DNA of 28,726 nt from a virus, in IMG/VR virus record IMGVR_UViG_3300013104_000066, positions 1-28,726 of that record. One strand, given 5' to 3'. A program made the translations under genes and the position numbers. How positions within the stretch are numbered: position 1 is the first letter of the stretch; each line of letters begins with the position of its first letter. The notes under the pieces were generated by a model, which worked only from the letters and a program-made list of their open reading frames with translations, did no database searches and was not told where the DNA came from. Below are positions 8,823 to 24,000 of the stretch, piece by piece.

Positions 8823-9518
8823 ATGATTTACAACAGCGTTCTTGGTGGTGTGGTTTCGGCTCTCGCCGCTGAAGCTATCGATAACACCAGCAAACAGGCA
8901 TGGCAAAAACTGTATAGCCCGCATGAGGAGGAGCAGCGCGACCTTCGTTCACTGTTCCGCTGCGCGCCAGGTGAACGTATTGATCGTGCTCAGGCTGATT
9001 GCTGGGTCGCGGCTCGACTTCACCACGGCCTCGAAAAGAAACATATGAACGCCTTGGTGGCCAAGTTCAGTACCGACAAGGCGAAGAAGGTTCAGGCAAT
9101 CACCGAGCTGCGACAGTTGATCAATTCGCCGGCGCCGCAACTATTCATCTTCAAGGCCGTCACCGCGTGGGCGGTTCCAAAGCTGAAGGGCGCCGATTCG
9201 AAGTCAGCAAAGACTGTCACGGTAACTGTTCCTGTCGACGCGCCGGATTGGCGTCGTGAGTCGATGATTGCCTCTGCAGTCGCCGCCGAACGATCAGCAA
9301 AGAAGCGGATTGAATCCCGGTCTGCGTCGATGATTGTTCTGCCGAAAAGCTTCTACGACATGAACACCTGGGATACCGAGGGCCGCCCTGAGTCGACGCG
9401 CCGCGAATGGCGCCGAAACATCTACGGCGCGCTGAACACGCTTGTTGATGAGGCGCTTTGTCTGGCAGGAGAGATATTCGATATCGAAGGGCTCATTATT
9501 TCTGCTGATGCAGCGTAA
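8823..9518 (+). CDS. Unknown phage protein in the position of a late antiterminator
   Basis: The 231-residue protein begins 3 bases after the preceding stop and ends the early operon before a terminator at 9598-9624. Residues about 55-100 (RAQADCWVAARLHHGLEKKHMNALVAKFS) are helical and basic, and the C-terminal half holds PKSFYDMNTWDTEG and a long helix. I recall no characterised family with certainty. Its place at the end of the early operon, just before the holin region, is that of lambda Q, so a late-gene activator or antiterminator is a reasonable hypothesis, with no direct motif support. Confidence 0.6.
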   Translation: MIYNSVLGGVVSALAAEAIDNTSKQAWQKLYSPHEEEQRDLRSLFRCAPGERIDRAQADCWVAARLHHGLEKKHMNALVAKFSTDKAKKVQAITELRQLINSPAPQLFIFKAVTAWAVPKLKGADSKSAKTVTVTVPVDAPDWRRESMIASAVAAERSAKKRIESRSASMIVLPKSFYDMNTWDTEGRPESTRREWRRNIYGALNTLVDEALCLAGEIFDIEGLIISADAA

Positions 9519-9683: not shown

Positions 9684-10169
9684 ATGTCTGATTTGAATGA
9701 ACCTCAAACTCACGATGACATGTTAAGAGGGCGGCTCGACGATCCGCTGTTTGTCAAACAGGAATGGCAAGGACGGGGTATTGATCAGTTGCTTCAATGG
9801 CTGGTCAATAACACGAATGCTCACCCCAACAATCAGCATTCAATTACATTAACTGTCGGCGGAAATCTAATTTCTGGGAAGCTGATATCGGCGGATGCTT
9901 ATTTCAAGAAGATGACGGATCACCTTGCAGCCGACTTTTCTGCTGAAGACGGTTCTCGCGAGATTTTCAAAGAAGAAGCCTCGCATTGGAATACGCCGCC
10001 GATTACTGAGAGCGGTCTTTTGCCTCCACCGCAATTCATTCATTTAGAAGCTGCGGAAATCTACAGCTCGAACGAGCGACCAATTCTACCTGGAGGGTCG
10101 CTTTGGAGAGGGAAGCTGTCGAGTGTTGATGGTTTCAACTTAGGCCGCCTCGTCTATACAGCCCAGTAA
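9684..10169 (+). CDS. GvpU-like accessory protein (161 aa)
   Basis: I chose the ATG at 9684 because GGGAG lies 8 bases upstream. The stretch SITLTVGGNLISGKLISADAYF, split at the glycines, and the late strand FIHLEAAEIY resemble GvpU, a small protein of gas vesicle clusters that is also found outside them; the match is by eye from memory. The gene is bounded by terminators at 9598-9624 and 10204-10230, uses more AT-rich codons than its neighbours, and is not coupled to them. This is the usual form of a phage accessory gene expressed on its own. No other gas vesicle gene is present, so a gas vesicle role is unlikely. Actual role unknown. Confidence 0.6.
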   Translation: MSDLNEPQTHDDMLRGRLDDPLFVKQEWQGRGIDQLLQWLVNNTNAHPNNQHSITLTVGGNLISGKLISADAYFKKMTDHLAADFSAEDGSREIFKEEASHWNTPPITESGLLPPPQFIHLEAAEIYSSNERPILPGGSLWRGKLSSVDGFNLGRLVYTAQ

Positions 10170-10203
10170 TTTCTTCACGCCCCAAGCGTTATTTTTTTCA
10201 CTG

Positions 10204-10230
10204 AAGCCTCGGCATTTGCCGGGGCTTTTT
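10204..10230 (+). terminator. Intrinsic terminator after the GvpU-like gene
   Basis: AAGCCTCGGC (10204-10213) pairs with GCCGGGGCTT (10218-10227) around ATTT, a 10-bp stem with one G-T pair, followed by TTTTTCGTTTT. It should end the accessory transcript just before the lysis genes, so late transcription from upstream would need antitermination to pass. Confidence 0.82.
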
Positions 10231-10265
10231 CGTTTTCGGCTCCACCACACCCATCGCATCGAGCC

Positions 10266-10312
10266 GGGAGTGCCGCTGGAGCCGAACCTAATGCACTCCC
10301 CCCAAAGGGAGG
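10266..10312 (+). promoter_or_regulatory. Holin leader with two mutually exclusive hairpins
   Basis: GGGAGTGC (10266-10273) pairs perfectly with GCACTCCC (10293-10300). The same CTCCC (10296-10300) can instead pair with GGGAG (10307-10311), part of the holin ribosome binding site GGGAGG (10307-10312). The first fold frees the site and the second hides it. Such a switch could set holin synthesis, comparable in position to the sdi structure before lambda S. This is a sequence-based inference. Confidence 0.5.
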
Positions 10313-10319
10313 AATCGAG

Positions 10320-10643
10320 ATGCCAAACATGCCTGAGAAGGATCCCGGCCTGTGGGCCGCAATGATTGCCTGGCTGCTGCTGCATCAACCCCAGCTCTAT
10401 GCCGCTGGCCTATCGGTCGGTATCGCTGTGCTGCGAGTGATGTACGGCGGCGGCACTCGCCGTCAGATGTATCTGGAAGGCGCGCTCTGCGGCCTGGTCA
10501 CGCTGTCGTTGGTGCCACTCCTTGAATGGATGGGCTTACCACAAAGCATGGCCACGTTCGCCGGCGGTGCAGTCGGCTTCCTCGGGGTCGAGAAGGTGCG
10601 CGGTTATTACGATCGTGCAGCCGTTCGGAAACTTGAGGGTTGA
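10320..10643 (+). CDS. Holin, lambda S family
   Basis: The 107-residue protein matches the lambda S holin family: MPEKD at residues 4-8 corresponds to the MPEKH start of lambda S105, followed by three hydrophobic segments (about 11-40, 52-70 and 77-92) and a basic tail (KVRGYYDRAAVRK). Holins make large holes in the inner membrane at a set time, releasing endolysin. Two starts are possible, Met1 (10320) and Met4 (10329), like the double start of lambda S, but the three-residue extension here (MPN) adds no positive charge. The ribosome binding site GGGAGG best suits Met1. No endolysin gene follows in this window. Confidence 0.85.
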   Translation: MPNMPEKDPGLWAAMIAWLLLHQPQLYAAGLSVGIAVLRVMYGGGTRRQMYLEGALCGLVTLSLVPLLEWMGLPQSMATFAGGAVGFLGVEKVRGYYDRAAVRKLEG

Positions 10644-10645
10644 AC

Positions 10646-10858
10646 ATGGCTCGCGTCGATAGCTTCCACCAGTACAACGACGGCCGCGGCAGGCGCCGGG
10701 TGTATGTCAATGGCAACGAGACTGAGCGCGTTGTTTGGTGCGATACGTCGTTGGGCATTGCGGTGTTCTGTCCGTTTCCGTACCGCGTTGATCACCGTCG
10801 TGACCAAATCTACACACGACGCCTGCGAGGAACGGTAACTGTCGAGAGGATTGACTGA
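10646..10858 (+). CDS. Small phage protein of unknown function (70 aa)
   Basis: The ATG at 10646 follows the holin stop by 2 bases and has GAGGG upstream. The protein is basic and beta-rich in appearance (RRRVYVNGNETERVVWCDTS, then IAVFCPFPYRV, TRRLRGTVTVERI), consistent with a small beta-sheet fold. No transmembrane segment or signal peptide is seen, so it is not an obvious spanin or endolysin. It overlaps the next gene by TGATG. I do not recognise its family; it is probably a conserved late-region protein. Confidence 0.6.
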   Translation: MARVDSFHQYNDGRGRRRVYVNGNETERVVWCDTSLGIAVFCPFPYRVDHRRDQIYTRRLRGTVTVERID

Positions 10859-11082
10859 TGGCTTGTACCGGATGTGCAGATCGCCGCGAATGGATCAAGA
10901 AGTGGAGCAAGGTGGCCTATGAGCGAGCGCAACGAATTCTCAGCCCAAGTGCTGATCAGCCCCGATCAGATGAAGGTGATAGCCGGCCGGGAGCAGGAGT
11001 TCCTGTCGATCTTCAAGCAACAGCTCCAGGAGCAGATGAAGACCAACGAGCTGCTGACAGCCCTGATCCAGTCACTGAGTGA
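10858..11082 (+). CDS. Small Cys-containing phage protein overlapping the next gene (74 aa)
   Basis: The start overlaps the preceding stop (TGATG) and has AGAGG upstream. The first 30 residues look like a real protein: a CTGC motif (residues 3-6) and a basic helix REWIKKWSKVAYERAQRI. From residue about 21 on, the frame overlaps the gene starting at 10919 for 164 bases, and that C-terminal part is Pro/Asp/Ala-rich and probably disordered. It is likely that the N-terminal part carries the function and the tail is shaped by the overlapping gene. Function unknown. Confidence 0.5.
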   Translation: MACTGCADRREWIKKWSKVAYERAQRILSPSADQPRSDEGDSRPGAGVPVDLQATAPGADEDQRAADSPDPVTE

Positions 11083-11155
11083 CGAGCAAGTTGATGACGA
11101 TGACGCCGAACCACTCACCTACATGGACGGCACACCCGTCAATGGAGGTGGCTGA
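10919..11155 (+). CDS. Small acidic helical phage protein (78 aa)
   Basis: The ATG at 10919 has AAGGTGG about 4 bases upstream. The protein is a long helix (QMKVIAGREQEFLSIFKQQL, then EQMKTNELLTALIQSL), coiled-coil-like, with a very acidic tail (DDDDAE) and a short end. It overlaps the previous gene in another frame and the HNH gene by TGATG. The well-formed amphipathic helix argues that this frame is the protein-coding one through most of the overlap. Function unknown; possibly a structural or packaging accessory. Confidence 0.65.
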   Translation: MSERNEFSAQVLISPDQMKVIAGREQEFLSIFKQQLQEQMKTNELLTALIQSLSDEQVDDDDAEPLTYMDGTPVNGGG

Positions 11156-11502
11156 TGGCGAAGCTGACTTCGCTCAAGTCTGGGCTGCAGACCCAACCGT
11201 CACGACTCGCCAACATCAATCCTGACTCATGGCGGGCCGGCAAGCAGACAGCGGCTCAACGTGGATACGGCTACAAGTGGCAGAAGGCACGGGCCAGCTG
11301 GTTAGAGCGGCACCCGCTCTGCGTCTACTGCGAACGCAGCGGGCGAGTGACGGCGGGCACCATCGTTGACCACATCGTCGAGCATCGCGGTGACCAGACA
11401 TTGTTCTGGGCGCGCAGCAACTGGCAGACGCTGTGCCAACCCTGCCATGACATCGTGAAGAAGGCCGAGGAGGCTGCTCGCGCCCTTGATGCACGCCAAT
11501 GA
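11155..11502 (+). CDS. HNH endonuclease next to the terminase
   Basis: A full HNH zinc-binding fold is visible: Cys56 and Cys59 (CVYC), Asp72-His73 (VDHI), His77 with HRGD, Asn89 (SNWQ), and Cys94, Cys97, His98 (CQPCH). His73 is the expected general base and the four Cys residues the structural zinc site. In HK97-type phages an HNH protein next to the terminase genes (gp74) assists cos cleavage and is needed for head formation. Position directly before the candidate cos and TerS fits that role. The start overlaps the previous stop (TGATG). Confidence 0.87.
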   Translation: MAKLTSLKSGLQTQPSRLANINPDSWRAGKQTAAQRGYGYKWQKARASWLERHPLCVYCERSGRVTAGTIVDHIVEHRGDQTLFWARSNWQTLCQPCHDIVKKAEEAARALDARQ

Positions 11503-11602
11503 CGTGCTTCAATGGCGTGTGGCACGTCAGTTCCCCGGTTTGAGAGGGGGAGGGGTGGGGTCAAAGTTCACACCTTTTTGCTCCAAGACCACCCTCCCCC
11601 TC
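11492..11602. other. Candidate cos / packaging region
   Basis: The 143-base gap between HNH and TerS holds several inverted repeats. CACGCCA (11492-11498) pairs with TGGCGTG (11513-11519), interleaved with GACGTGC (11501-11507) and GCACGTC (11522-11528). A G-rich arm at 11544-11558 is nearly complementary to the C-rich arm at 11589-11602. Position before TerS and near the HNH gene matches cos in HK97-like phages. The exact nick positions cannot be read from sequence. Confidence 0.5.
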
Positions 11603-11645
11603 ACGCGCAGATTTTATTCCCCTTTTGAAAAAAGGAATTCAGCAA

Positions 11646-12053
11646 ATGGCAGGCGTAAAAGGCAAGAGCGGGGGCGCTCGCCCCAACTCTGGCGGCGCTC
11701 GGCCGGGCGCTGGCCGGAAAAAGAAGATTGATCCGGAATCACCAAACCAATCCTCGGTGACCGTGGAGTTCGAGGCCCAGCCACATGGCGGTGCACTGAA
11801 GCGGGAAAAGGCGGTACCGGTCCCGGTGCCAGAGATGGACATGCTTTCGCTACTGACGAAAATTGCCCTGGGCCAGCTTGATGCCAGCCCGATACAGGTG
11901 AGGGCGGCCATCGCCGCGGTTCAATACACACACGTTAAGAAAGCGGATGGCGGCAAGAAGGATGAGGTGCACAAGGCAGCCGAGCAGGCCGCTGGAAAAT
12001 TTTCCCGGCAGGCACCGCCCAAACTGGTCGCGGCGAACGGTAAGCAGGTTTAA
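11646..12053 (+). CDS. Terminase small subunit
   Basis: I chose the ATG at 11646 (AGGA about 10 bases upstream) because the protein then begins with the family pattern AGVKGKSGGARPNSGGARP, a Gly/Arg-rich N-terminal tail followed by GAGRKKK. The middle (MLSLLTKIALGQLDASPIQV, then RAAIAAVQYTHVKK) is the helical core seen in small terminase subunits of HK97/D3-like Pseudomonas phages. It recognises packaging DNA and directs the large subunit. It is followed after 2 bases by TerL. At 135 residues, size is normal for the family. Confidence 0.8.
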   Translation: MAGVKGKSGGARPNSGGARPGAGRKKKIDPESPNQSSVTVEFEAQPHGGALKREKAVPVPVPEMDMLSLLTKIALGQLDASPIQVRAAIAAVQYTHVKKADGGKKDEVHKAAEQAAGKFSRQAPPKLVAANGKQV

Positions 12054-12055
12054 CT

Positions 12056-13747
12056 ATGGAATGGTCAACGGCATGCCCGGACTGGGCGCAGCGACTTGTT
12101 GACCGCGAGTCGATCATTCCTCCGCCAATCTTTGTCGATGAGGCTGAACGAGCCTTAGCAATTTTCATGGAGCTGAGAGTCCCGGATCTGCCCGGCAAGC
12201 CAAGAATGGCTGACTGCTGTGATGAGTGGGTGCTCGACTACGTTCGGTGCATTTTCGGTGCTTACGACGGAGAGACAGGACGCCAACTGATCCGGGAGTT
12301 CGGCCTGCTCATCAGCAAGAAAAACACAAAAAGCACGATTGCTGCCGGGATCATGCTGACGGCTTTGATCTTGTGTTGGCGGGAGGAGGAGGAGCATCTG
12401 ATCCTGGCGCCGACCCGCGAGGTAGCGGACAACGCTTTCAAGCCCGCCGCGGCAATGGTCCGAGCCGATGAAGAACTGTCGGCGATGTTCCACATTCAGG
12501 ACCATATCAGGACTATCACCGATCGAACGACGCGCAACTCGCTGAAAGTCGTTGCAGCTGACACCGACACCGTGTCTGGCAAGAAGTCCGGCAAGGTCCT
12601 AGTAGACGAGCTCTGGGTTTTCGGTAAGCGCGCCAACGCCGAGTCGATGTTCATGGAGGCGCTCGGCGGACAGATATCTCGCGAAGAGGGTTGGGTTATC
12701 TACCTGACCACGCAGAGTGATGAACCACCTGCAGGCGTTTTCAAGGAACGCTTGAGTTACTGGCGTGATGTTCGGGATGGCAAGATCCTCGATCCAAAAA
12801 CGCTGGGTGTTCTCTACGAATTTCCGCAGCAGATGGTTGATGGTAAGGACTATCTAAAGCCAGAAAACTTCTACATCACCAACCCCAATATTGGACGATC
12901 GGTGAGTGCGGAATGGCTTGAGGATCAGCTGAAAAAACGGCTGGGGTCCTCTGATGGGTCTCTGCAAAAATTCCTCGCGAAACATCTCAATATTGAAATT
13001 GGCCTGAATTTACGCAGCGATCGCTGGGCTGGAGCTGATCATTGGCAGGCGGCTTCCGAGTCTGGCATGAGCCTCGAAACAATACTCGAAAGATCGGAGG
13101 TAGTAACTGTCGGCATCGACGGTGGCGGCCTTGATGACCTTTTGGGGCTGACCGTACTGGGGCGAGAGCCTGGCACTCGCCGGTGGCTTCATTGGGCTCA
13201 TGCTTGGGCTCACCAGATCGTCTTCGAGCGCCGGAAGGACATTGCCAGCGTATTGAGAGACTTTGAGAGCGCGGGCGATCTCACGGTGGTTGATCGACCT
13301 GGTGATGACGTGCAGCAGGTTGCTGACATCATTTGCGACATCCGCGATCGAGGGCTACTGCCGGAAAAGTTAGCGATTGGCGTGGACGCTGCCGGTATAG
13401 GCGACATCGTCGATGAGCTCACCACGGAAGAACGCGGCATCGTGATGGAGCAAATTGTCGCTATCTCCCAGGGCTGGAAGCTGAACGGCGCAATCAAAAC
13501 TACAGAACGCAAGGTTGCCGGCGGTGAGTTGGTTCATTGCGGAAGCCCGCTGATGAGCTGGTCCGTAAGTAATGCGCGGATTGTTCCCCAGGGCAACGCA
13601 ATCACGATCACCAAGCAGGCAAGTGGCTCGGCCAAGATCGACCCGCTTATGTCCACATTTGATGCCGTCTCCCTGATGGCCCTGAACCCCGAAGGCGCTG
13701 GCGACCTGCAGGGCTTTTTCGATAACCCGATCATGGTAGGAATCTGA
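12056..13747 (+). CDS. Terminase large subunit
   Basis: The 563-residue protein is the packaging motor ATPase and nuclease. The Walker A region lies around residues 86-94 (ISKKNTKST), with Lys92 but Thr in place of the usual Gly, a variant I associate with this TerL branch. Walker B is VLVDE (181-185), with Glu185 as the catalytic carboxylate. The C-terminal RNase H-like nuclease has Asp355 (VGIDGG), Asp444 (IGVDAAG) and Asp536 (STFDAVS). It cuts concatemers at cos and drives DNA into the prohead through the portal encoded next, whose start overlaps the TerL stop (TGATG). Confidence 0.92.
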   Translation: MEWSTACPDWAQRLVDRESIIPPPIFVDEAERALAIFMELRVPDLPGKPRMADCCDEWVLDYVRCIFGAYDGETGRQLIREFGLLISKKNTKSTIAAGIMLTALILCWREEEEHLILAPTREVADNAFKPAAAMVRADEELSAMFHIQDHIRTITDRTTRNSLKVVAADTDTVSGKKSGKVLVDELWVFGKRANAESMFMEALGGQISREEGWVIYLTTQSDEPPAGVFKERLSYWRDVRDGKILDPKTLGVLYEFPQQMVDGKDYLKPENFYITNPNIGRSVSAEWLEDQLKKRLGSSDGSLQKFLAKHLNIEIGLNLRSDRWAGADHWQAASESGMSLETILERSEVVTVGIDGGGLDDLLGLTVLGREPGTRRWLHWAHAWAHQIVFERRKDIASVLRDFESAGDLTVVDRPGDDVQQVADIICDIRDRGLLPEKLAIGVDAAGIGDIVDELTTEERGIVMEQIVAISQGWKLNGAIKTTERKVAGGELVHCGSPLMSWSVSNARIVPQGNAITITKQASGSAKIDPLMSTFDAVSLMALNPEGAGDLQGFFDNPIMVGI

Positions 13748-15144
13748 TGGCCAACAAAAAACCAGGCCGGGTGAAGGCTGCGCTACAGAACTGGCTCGGC
13801 GTACCGATTGGGCTGAAGGATGGCTCGTTCTGGCAAGAGTGGTTCGGCGCATCGGCGGCGGGCAAGCATGTGTCGGTGGATAAGGCCATGCAGCTGTCCA
13901 CCGTTTGGGCCTGCGTACGGTTGCTGTCTGAATCTGTATCCACGCTACCGCTCAAGCTTTACCAGCGTATGCCTGATGGTTCTCGCACGCCGGCGAAGGA
14001 TCACCCGTTGTATCGGGTTTTGTGCCGGGTGCCGAATTCGGAGATGACGCCTCAGCGTTTCATGCTGCTGGTCGTGGCAAGCATCTGCCTTCGCGGCAAT
14101 GCCTTCGTCGAAAAGAAAATGATCGGCAGTCGGATCATCGCGCTGGTGCCGCTGCTGCCGCAGTGCATGAGTGTGAAGCGCCTGGATACCGGGCGGCTGA
14201 AATATACCTACACCGAGAACGGTAACGAACGGGATATTCCTGAGAAGAACCTCATGCACATCCGCGGCTTCGGCCTGGATGGTGTTTGTGGGATGTTGCC
14301 AGTTACAACCGGCCGCGAGATTTTCGGATCGGCGATGGCAGTTGAGGAGGCAGCCGCTAAGGTGTTTGCCCAAGGCATGCAGGCTTCCGGCATCCTCAGC
14401 AGTGACGCCAAAATCACTCCGCAGCAGCGCGAGCAACTCCGGACGAGTCTCAACGCGTTCATGGGCTCGAAGAACGCCGGCAAGATCATGGTCGCGGAAG
14501 CGGGCTTCAAGTATCAGGGCATCACAATGAACCCTGAAGCGGCGCAGATGCTGGAGTCTCGATCGTTCAACATTGAGGAGATGTGCCGCTGGTTCCGTGT
14601 TCCGCCGTTCATGGTTGGGCATATGGACAAGCAGTCCAGTTGGGCCAGCTCGGTCGAGGCACAGAACCTGCATTTCTTGACCAACAGCCTCCGGCCTTTG
14701 CTGGTGAATATCGAGCAGGAGATCACTCGCTGCCTGATCGGCGACGCAGACGCTGATGAGTACTTCGCCGAATTCTCCGTTGAGGGTCTACTCCGTGCTG
14801 ATAGCGCCGGCCGGGGGGCCTGGTACAACACTGCGCTGCAAAATGGCTGGATGTGCCGAAACGAAGTGCGTCGACTGGAGAACCTGCCGCCAATTCCCGG
14901 TGGTGACATTTACACGGTCCAGTCAGCGCTGGTTTCACTCGATCAGCTCGGCAAGCAATCGGCCGGCATGTCTCCAGCTGCGACGGCGTTCATGTTGCGA
15001 ATTGCTGCCGCTAACCAAGCTGGCGACAAGGCGACTCTCTCGGATGCTTTCGAGCTTGCCAACAAGGCGCTGGAATCCGGAAACCCGGACGGGCCACTGA
15101 TGGCCCATGCGCTGATTTCGCTGCCTTTGCTTAAAGCAGCCTGA
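13747..15144 (+). CDS. Portal protein, HK97 type
   Basis: The 465-residue protein matches the HK97 gp3-like portal family: the N-terminal LSTVWACVRLLSESVSTLPL helix and strand, LYRVLCRVPN, the stem region and the C-terminal crown with EQEITRCLI and a helical, Ala-rich tail. Twelve copies form the ring at one capsid vertex through which DNA passes and to which the terminase and connectors bind. It starts in the TGATG overlap with TerL and is followed 14 bases later by the prohead protease, the canonical HK97 order. Confidence 0.92.
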   Translation: MANKKPGRVKAALQNWLGVPIGLKDGSFWQEWFGASAAGKHVSVDKAMQLSTVWACVRLLSESVSTLPLKLYQRMPDGSRTPAKDHPLYRVLCRVPNSEMTPQRFMLLVVASICLRGNAFVEKKMIGSRIIALVPLLPQCMSVKRLDTGRLKYTYTENGNERDIPEKNLMHIRGFGLDGVCGMLPVTTGREIFGSAMAVEEAAAKVFAQGMQASGILSSDAKITPQQREQLRTSLNAFMGSKNAGKIMVAEAGFKYQGITMNPEAAQMLESRSFNIEEMCRWFRVPPFMVGHMDKQSSWASSVEAQNLHFLTNSLRPLLVNIEQEITRCLIGDADADEYFAEFSVEGLLRADSAGRGAWYNTALQNGWMCRNEVRRLENLPPIPGGDIYTVQSALVSLDQLGKQSAGMSPAATAFMLRIAAANQAGDKATLSDAFELANKALESGNPDGPLMAHALISLPLLKAA

Positions 15145-21038: not shown

Positions 21039-24000
21039 ATGTCATCGCGCTCGCTGGGCACTTTGACGCTGGATCTGGTCGCTAAAATCGGCGGGTTTCA
21101 GCAGAATATGGATCAGGCATCAAGGTCCGTTGCTGGATCAGGCTCCGCCGCGGTCAAGGCTTCAGCTCAGGTTCAAGTGCTTGAGCGTCAGTTCTCATCG
21201 CTGGCTGGAGTAGCATCTAGACTCGCCGCACCTCTCGCCGCTGCGTTCAGTGTGAACGGTATTTACACCGCGAGCGAGGCATACAGCACACTGACGAACC
21301 GATTGAAATTGGTAACGAACGGTACCGCCGAGCTCGTTACTGCCCAGTCTGCGGTATTTGGTATCGCGCAAGATGCCCGACAGCCCCTTACGGCGACCGC
21401 CGAACTCTACCAGCGCATCGCGACGAACCAGAAGGAACTGAAGCTTTCTGGTGAAGGTGTGGCCGGCATCGTCGGCACTATCAGCAAAACGCTCGCGATC
21501 TCCGGTTCATCTGCTGAGAGCGCAAACGCTGCACTGATTCAGCTTGGCCAGGCGTTCGCATCCGGTGTGCTGCGCGGCGAAGAGCTCAACTCGGTGCTGG
21601 AACAGGCTCCGGCGTTGGCCCAGGCGATCGCGAAGGGCATGGGCAAGACAGTTGGAGATTTGCGCAACCTCGGCGAGCAAGGATTGCTTACTGCTGATGC
21701 GGTCGTGAAGGCACTTCAAAGCCAGGCTGGCGCTGTGGATGCTCTCTTCTCGAAGATGACGGCCACAATTGGCGGCAGCCTCACTGTAGTTGGCAACTCA
21801 ATCACCCGCTATATCGGGGAGATTGATCAGATGTCTGGGGCGAGCGGCAAGGTCGCTGGTGAAATTCTCGCGGTAGCCAAAGTGATTGACGGAAGCCTTC
21901 CCGCGGCCTTGGACGGCATCCGTGAACACTCGGGCGCGCTGGTTCAGTTGTTCACTACTGGCCTGTACGTAGCGCTTGCACGGGTAGCCGGAGGATTTGC
22001 CCAGCAGGGTGCAGCAGCTTTGTCGGCCGCCGCCGCGAATCAGGCAGCTCTGACGTCCTCGGCCGCGCTTGCCAAGCAGGATCTGTTGGCGGCTCAGGCC
22101 AAACAACTGGACGCCAAAGCATCGGTTCAGCGGGCAAATCTTGAGCTGAGCGCCGCACAGGGAAAGGTCGCTTCAGATCGGGTGCGCCAGGCCTCAGAGC
22201 TGGCCAACATCCAATCCGTACAAGCCGCACTTGCTGCCGAGTTGACGCTTGAGCAGGAGCGCTTGAAAGCGCAGATCAACGAGCAGGGGCGCGCAGCGTC
22301 GGTTGCTCGGATCTCCGAGATTCGTCTCACACAGGTTGCGGTGATCAAGCAGGTTGAAGCCGCGGAACGCTCCTTGGCCAGCACTACGGTGGCGTCCTCG
22401 GCACTCGTGGAAAAGGCCTATGCAGGGCGCACCGCAGCAACATTGGCCTTTGCTGAAACGACCGCCGCGGTTAACGCGCTGAGCGTTGCATCGAACAATG
22501 CTGCCGCCGCGGCCAGCGTGACCGGGCGGGCATTTTCCGCACTCGCAACTGCGGGTAGCGGGGCCTTGGCGATGCTCGGCGGCCCGGTAGGGCTGGTGTT
22601 CATCACTGCCGCCGCCGCGCTTTCCTTCATCGACTTTCGCAGCAGTGCCGACAAGGCAAAAGAGGGCCTTGAGCAGCTTCAGGGGCCGTTGGATCAGGTA
22701 ATCGCCAGATTCAAATCCATGACAGAGGAGCAACGCGCCGGCGCCCTGGTTCGCTGGAGTGAGGCACAGGTTGATGCGGTGAAGGCCGCAAAAGGAGAGC
22801 TGGATTCCCTCCAGGCGACTCTGAAAAAAGGGGTTCTGGGATCTGACTCGCTTTCTCTGCCGTCGAGGATTGCGGGTTCCAGCAACGACGAAACGATCAA
22901 AAGAGCACAGGCATACGAGGATTTGCGCACGAGGATTGACGAAGCCGCGAAAAGCGGTCAGTCGATCATTCCTATTTTGGAGGAGGCGGGCAAGGTACCT
23001 GGCGTTTCACCGAAGTTGGTGGATGACCTTAAAAAGGGCGCTGAAGCATGGTCGACGCAGAACCAAGTTGCCAAGGAAGCTGAAGATCGTCAGCGCATCC
23101 TCCGTGGCGAGATGGACAAAACTGCCGCATCGGCGGCGAATGGCGCAGCGGCGACCGGCGGAATGACTACTGCCGGCGAGAAGTACCTGAAAACCTTGCA
23201 GGCTCAGTTGGGCAAGCTGCAGGACAACAACGACGCGGTGAAGGAAGCCACCCGATACCTGGATCAGCACAAGGAACTGAGCGAGGCTGATCGGACGGCG
23301 ATTATGTCCGTCGCCTACGCCACGAAAGCTCAGGATGAAGCCAACAAGGCCGCCACCAAATCGACGAAGGATGCAGCCAAAGCCCAGACCTCTCTGATAG
23401 AGCAGTTGAAGCAGGCTGCTGCCGGTTTTCTTGACCTGAAAAAGTCATTCGATCCGGTGGGCGCAGCATCAGAGCAATTTCAGAAGTCGACCGGGCAGCT
23501 CAACCTCCTTTTCAAGAATGGGAAGATCACCCAGGAAGATTACGGCAAGGGCACCGCGTGGCTGGCAGAGCAATTCAATACTGCCACCAAGGCTGCGCTC
23601 GGCCTGTCACAGGCTGAGGAATACCGCCTTGAGCTGGAGAAGAAGCTCAACAATGATCGCGCTCAATACGCGAGCCAGGCCGCGGCAGTCGGGCAGGGTG
23701 ATAAGGAAGCCGAGCGCGCGCAGCAGCGCTTGGAGCTTGAACGTGAGACTAACGAGCGGCTGCTTTCGCTGCGCACCGAACTGGCCAATGCCACGACGGA
23801 AAAACAACGCAACGACCTGCAGGCCCAGATTGATCTGACGAACGAGTATCTGCCGAAACAGGTTGATGCCATGCGTGAGGGTTTCAGGCAGATCGACGAG
23901 GCTCAGGCGGATTGGTCGAATGGAGCGCGTTCGGCGTTTGCCAATTACATGGACAGCGCTTCGAACGTCGCCGAGCAGACGAAGAACCTGTTTTCTGATG

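Follow-up and report, generated by a model that had tools for sequence, protein, structure and literature searches.

We found that the region between 10296 and 10331 of the window (the whole stretch of DNA that was analysed, 28,726 nucleotides of IMG/VR record IMGVR_UViG_3300013104_000066) is probably where translation of a lambda S-type holin of a temperate Pseudomonas phage is initiated, with a hairpin over the Shine-Dalgarno (SD) site, two in-frame starts and a separate hairpin module upstream. The features of the region are the following.

10203-10228, + strand: intrinsic terminator directly 5' of the leader, placed as tR' is in lambda, with an 11-pair stem and a T run
10235-10286, + strand: post-terminator hairpin, in which arm A (10235-10244) pairs with arm B (10277-10286) and an inner stem joins 10246-10252 to 10266-10272
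10296-10311, + strand: putative SD-sequestering hairpin, CTCCC (10296-10300) with GGGAG (10307-10311), judged from conservation and as an analogue of the stem-loop in the lambda S initiation region
10308-10312, + strand: SD sequence GGAGG, 7 nt before the first ATG and 16 nt before the second
10317-10319, + strand: GAG, candidate weak SD for the second ATG, abutting the first ATG and 9 nt before the second
10320-10322, + strand: first start codon (MPN-M...), almost always an ATG among the 235 distinct leaders, with no such start found in 8
10329-10331, + strand: second start codon (MPEKD...), invariant in the protein alignment and the sole start in 8 leaders
10320-10643, + strand: lambda-family (S-type) holin of 107 aa (TIGR01594; PF05106; PHROG 126, holin/anti-holin)

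In a profile search the product of the open reading frame at 10320-10643 scored 92.8 bits against TIGR01594 (curated cut-off 55.05) and 106.6 against PF05106 (curated cut-off 23.8), and three libraries agree that it belongs to the lambda holin family. The holin of Pseudomonas phage F10 (YP_001293404), whose record carries the note 'Dual start motif', is 60% identical to that of the window and shares with it the double start and a hairpin on the SD, CCCCTGCGAGGGG, but it has a charged MK extension; its endolysin lies directly 3' of the holin, whereas none adjoins the window holin. The holin of PseuP_224 is 82% identical and also begins MPN-MPEKD behind an SD hairpin, CTCCCCGAAAGGGAG, although that locus is without the post-terminator hairpin module and has a Q gene upstream. 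On the 3' side of the window holin (10644-15144) are a short gene, an HNH endonuclease gene and terminase genes. Related loci were fetched from IMG/VR, named Pseudomonas genomes and annotated phage records with four queries (the window holin, the F10 holin, a Pseudomonas holin beginning MSN-MPDKPDTW, and lambda S), giving a set of 235 distinct leaders; because these leaders are related by descent, counts over them describe a distribution and not independent events. Counts of charge and of second SD sites refer to the 202 dual-start leaders of the P. fluorescens/P. putida type.

The 5' end of the holin frame, ATG CCA AAC ATG CCT GAG AAG GAT, reads MPN-MPEKD, placing two in-frame ATG codons (10320 and 10329) three codons apart before MPEK. 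The preliminary description had likened this arrangement to the double start of lambda S, and the likeness is borne out: lambda S in NC_001416 begins MK-MPEKH, with an extension of two codons instead of three. The first start is kept across the relatives, and in eight leaders (L171, L185, L189, L192, L197, L233, L251 and L352) the second ATG is the sole start; on a quick tree of 164 holins, loss of the first ATG needs at least six changes. Three other leaders (L201, L248 and L274) use TTG as the first start, have a charged MKI extension and retain the SD hairpin. The second start has a candidate site of its own: a GAG stands immediately 5' of the first ATG in 143 dual-start leaders, and 199/202 have an SD-like triplet 5-13 nt 5' of the second. 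The codon preceding the second ATG is AAC in 166 of the 202. Taken at the level of the aligned leaders, these features suggest that both starts are in use.

The pairing of CTCCC with the holin ribosome binding site, proposed earlier from the window only, is a property of the family. The three pentamers are exactly where they had been placed (GGGAG at 10266-10270, CTCCC at 10296-10300 and GGGAG at 10307-10311), and all 64 distinct close leaders, also those with unrelated upstream DNA, have a stem whose 3' arm covers the SD. Composition-preserving shuffles formed stems in 40% of cases compared with 93% for the real leaders; as a null they are weak, since chance alone gives stems in C-rich leaders, and other genes with GGAG sites were therefore taken as the control. 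Under a common criterion, and counting genes with a GGAG site, 130 of the 137 leaders of lambda-type holins had a comparable SD stem, versus 35 of 642 other open reading frames; among the 137, two precede other proteins, starting MPDR or MPER, and L184 resembles a scrambled junction. The pairing is kept while the letters of the stem vary, as CTCCC/GGGAG, CTCCCC/GGGGAG, CCCTC/GAGGG and, in P. aeruginosa phages, CCCC/GGGG; further away, lambda has ATCCCC/GGGGGT and P22 has CCTCAC/GTGAGG. Since CTCCC is nearly invariant inside the close group of leaders, most of this covariation comes from the more distant relatives. Low scores for the SD helix in L083 and L085 were traced to an alignment shift, CTCCCCGAAAGGGAG being intact in both. 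In the window itself a run of six C residues allows two registers, and folding predicts that GGG 10307-10309 is paired in both, with an unpaired probability of at most 0.04.

In lambda, the 2:1 ratio of S105 to S107 is set by an RNA stem-loop that includes the ribosome binding site (PMC3369941). By analogy, the hairpin at 10296-10311 would hide the GGAGG that serves the first ATG and throttle initiation there, the weaker GAG at 10317-10319 would serve the second ATG, and together they would apportion the long (MPN-) and the short (MPEKD...) holin. The SD hairpin thereby probably sets both the long-to-short ratio and the total yield of holin. However, it cannot serve solely to apportion two starts, because most of the eight leaders that lack the first ATG retain it, and its persistence there suggests that yield control weighs at least as much as ratio control.

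The extension M-P-N of the window carries no additional positive charge, in agreement with the earlier statement that the charge difference of lambda is missing, and this is the usual state in a large Pseudomonas branch: 189 of the 202 dual-start leaders have neither Lys nor Arg in the extension (13 do), and none has Asp or Glu. In contrast, every relative examined from P. aeruginosa, Aeromonas or enterobacteria has K or R there, as MK in the P. aeruginosa phages, the Aeromonas phages and lambda, as MR in a Klebsiella phage, and as the doubly charged MKK in P22, whose gp13 holin otherwise shares the dual start and a hairpin on the SD (CCTCAC-GGTC-GTGAGG). At least 12 changes between the charged and neutral states are needed on the quick tree of 164 holins. 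In 190 of the 202 leaders the second residue is Pro, Ser, Ala, Thr or Gly. Such residues normally permit removal of the first Met and Lys does not, so by this general rule the Pro of the window would permit removal whereas the Lys of lambda would not. The neutral extension is, to judge from these leaders, a genuine departure common to the whole P. fluorescens/P. putida branch, because in the description of the lambda and phage 21 antiholins an extra N-terminal residue with a positive charge alters topology (PMC9636201).

Two other readings of the double start were weighed against this one. The holin could be a true dual-start holin/antiholin pair in which the neutral MPN extension delays lysis through its length or polarity at the N-terminus instead of its charge; in its favour, the first ATG, a good SD for it and a polar residue before the second ATG are kept across many divergent holins. 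We consider it doubtful, as the described antiholins carry a charge that 189 of the 202 extensions lack, and the eight leaders without the first ATG also speak against it. Less likely still, the first ATG alone would be used; the inner Met would then simply be the conserved residue with which the MPEK motif begins, and the hairpin would only tune expression. The closer spacing of GGAGG to the first ATG and the persistence of the hairpin in single-start relatives fit that reading, but relatives whose only start is the second ATG, together with the SD-like triplets before that codon, do not. In the reading that we prefer, with both starts in use, the long form would be at most a weak antiholin without a charge difference, and more likely weak or none; therefore the initiation region would act mainly on the amount of holin.

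The preliminary description had also proposed a two-state switch, in which CTCCC would pair either with an upstream arm, leaving the ribosome binding site free, or with the site itself, closing it. The complementarity is longer than first noted, with GGGAGTGC at 10266-10273 facing GCACTCCC at 10293-10300 over 8 bp, the best structure that holds this helix costs just 2.6 kcal/mol more than the minimum, and folding predicts that the helix dominates in a few relatives (L018, L012 and L014). When the RNA is cut at 10262, and so lacks arm A, folding gives the helix a probability of 0.99. With the complete upstream module folded, however, its probability in the window falls to 0.0024, and arm A is transcribed first; the helix can thus look convincing when that arm is left out of account. 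No two-sided change was found in it across 34 leaders, the pair 10273:10293 is unpaired in 13 of them, and in L021 and L036 the change that breaks it completes the inner stem of the upstream hairpin. The upstream GGGAG is moreover retained in modules that have no downstream CTCCC (phiAH14a and several other loci). Even when the helix is formed in the window, GGG 10307-10309 is predicted to remain paired, to CCC 10301-10303, and the helix would therefore not free the ribosome site in this phage. Covariation in the leaders of relatives thus supports one of the two proposed folds: the letters of the SD stem change with pairing kept, while the upstream stem, whose arm lies within another hairpin, has no two-sided change. 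The SD helix is conserved; for the upstream helix, alignment, counts of pairs and folding led us to reject conservation, and a two-state switch in this leader is very improbable.

The upstream arm belongs instead to the post-terminator hairpin. Arm A, TTCGGCTCCA (10235-10244), pairs with TGGAGCCGAA (10277-10286) in 10 of 10 outer positions, and an inner stem of CACACCC (10246-10252) with GGGAGTG (10266-10272) takes up the proposed arm at 10266-10270; the predicted pairing probabilities in the window are 0.95 for the outer and 0.85 for the inner stem. The outer stem varies among 193 distinct copies by compensatory changes, such as A-T to G-C at its inner end and T-A to C-G in the middle, and these favour a structural role. 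The module lies directly 3' of a terminator-like site in 189 of 196 copies versus 156 of 1960 random positions. It stands ahead of late or lysis genes of temperate Pseudomonas phages and precedes at least three types of protein, namely lambda-S holins (PHROG 126), phrog_2359 holins and phrog_2658 proteins. Judged by these patterns, the hairpin at 10235-10286 is a separate module that forms no conserved switch with the SD hairpin. Rfam 15 had no match over 10235-10311 (two sub-threshold matches at chance level lie upstream), and scanning for promoters gave no sigma-70-like site in the vicinity of the leader. The module is present in 25 of 149 Pseudomonas genomes sampled (about 1 in 6) with 0-3 copies per genome, and a dispersed host repeat was rejected on these numbers. 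One contig, G100:C66, has two copies 1.7 kb apart (21255-21285 and 22999-23029), which suggests duplication or exchange of modules through the element.

Of 12 checked records carrying the module or its holins, five encode a Q-like antiterminator (phrog_79), and in PseuP_224 and VW-6S a Q gene separates the holin from the genes upstream; the order of Q gene, terminator and holin is that of lambda Q, tR' and S. The window encodes at 8823-9518, where PseuP_224 and VW-6S have the Q-like gene, a 231-aa phrog_3412 protein, a candidate for a non-homologous late regulator. A gene at 9684-10169, between two terminators and 5' of the holin, matches the gas vesicle accessory protein GvpU (NF041667, 75.2 bits, cut-off 70); odd for a phage late region, it is possibly inserted cargo. 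Candidate roles for the module are an element of RNA processing or stability, a part of the late transcription signal, and a recombination linker.

Reviews describe the antiholins of lambda and phage 21 as arising through added N-terminal charge (PMC9636201). Here a whole branch of that holin family has retained double start and SD hairpin without that charge and includes natural relatives in which the second ATG is the sole start, which makes it a ready comparison between an antiholin that works by charge and control of dose by initiation; a candidate regulatory element is added by the post-terminator hairpin. We tentatively raise the possibility that in the prophages of the P. fluorescens/P. 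putida branch selection keeps a dual start without added charge, which would imply charge-independent inhibition or yield control only, and that the hairpin at 10235-10286, common to late operons with unrelated holins, may act in cis, as RNA (or DNA), in the late transcription of Pseudomonas phages and be an element not described before.
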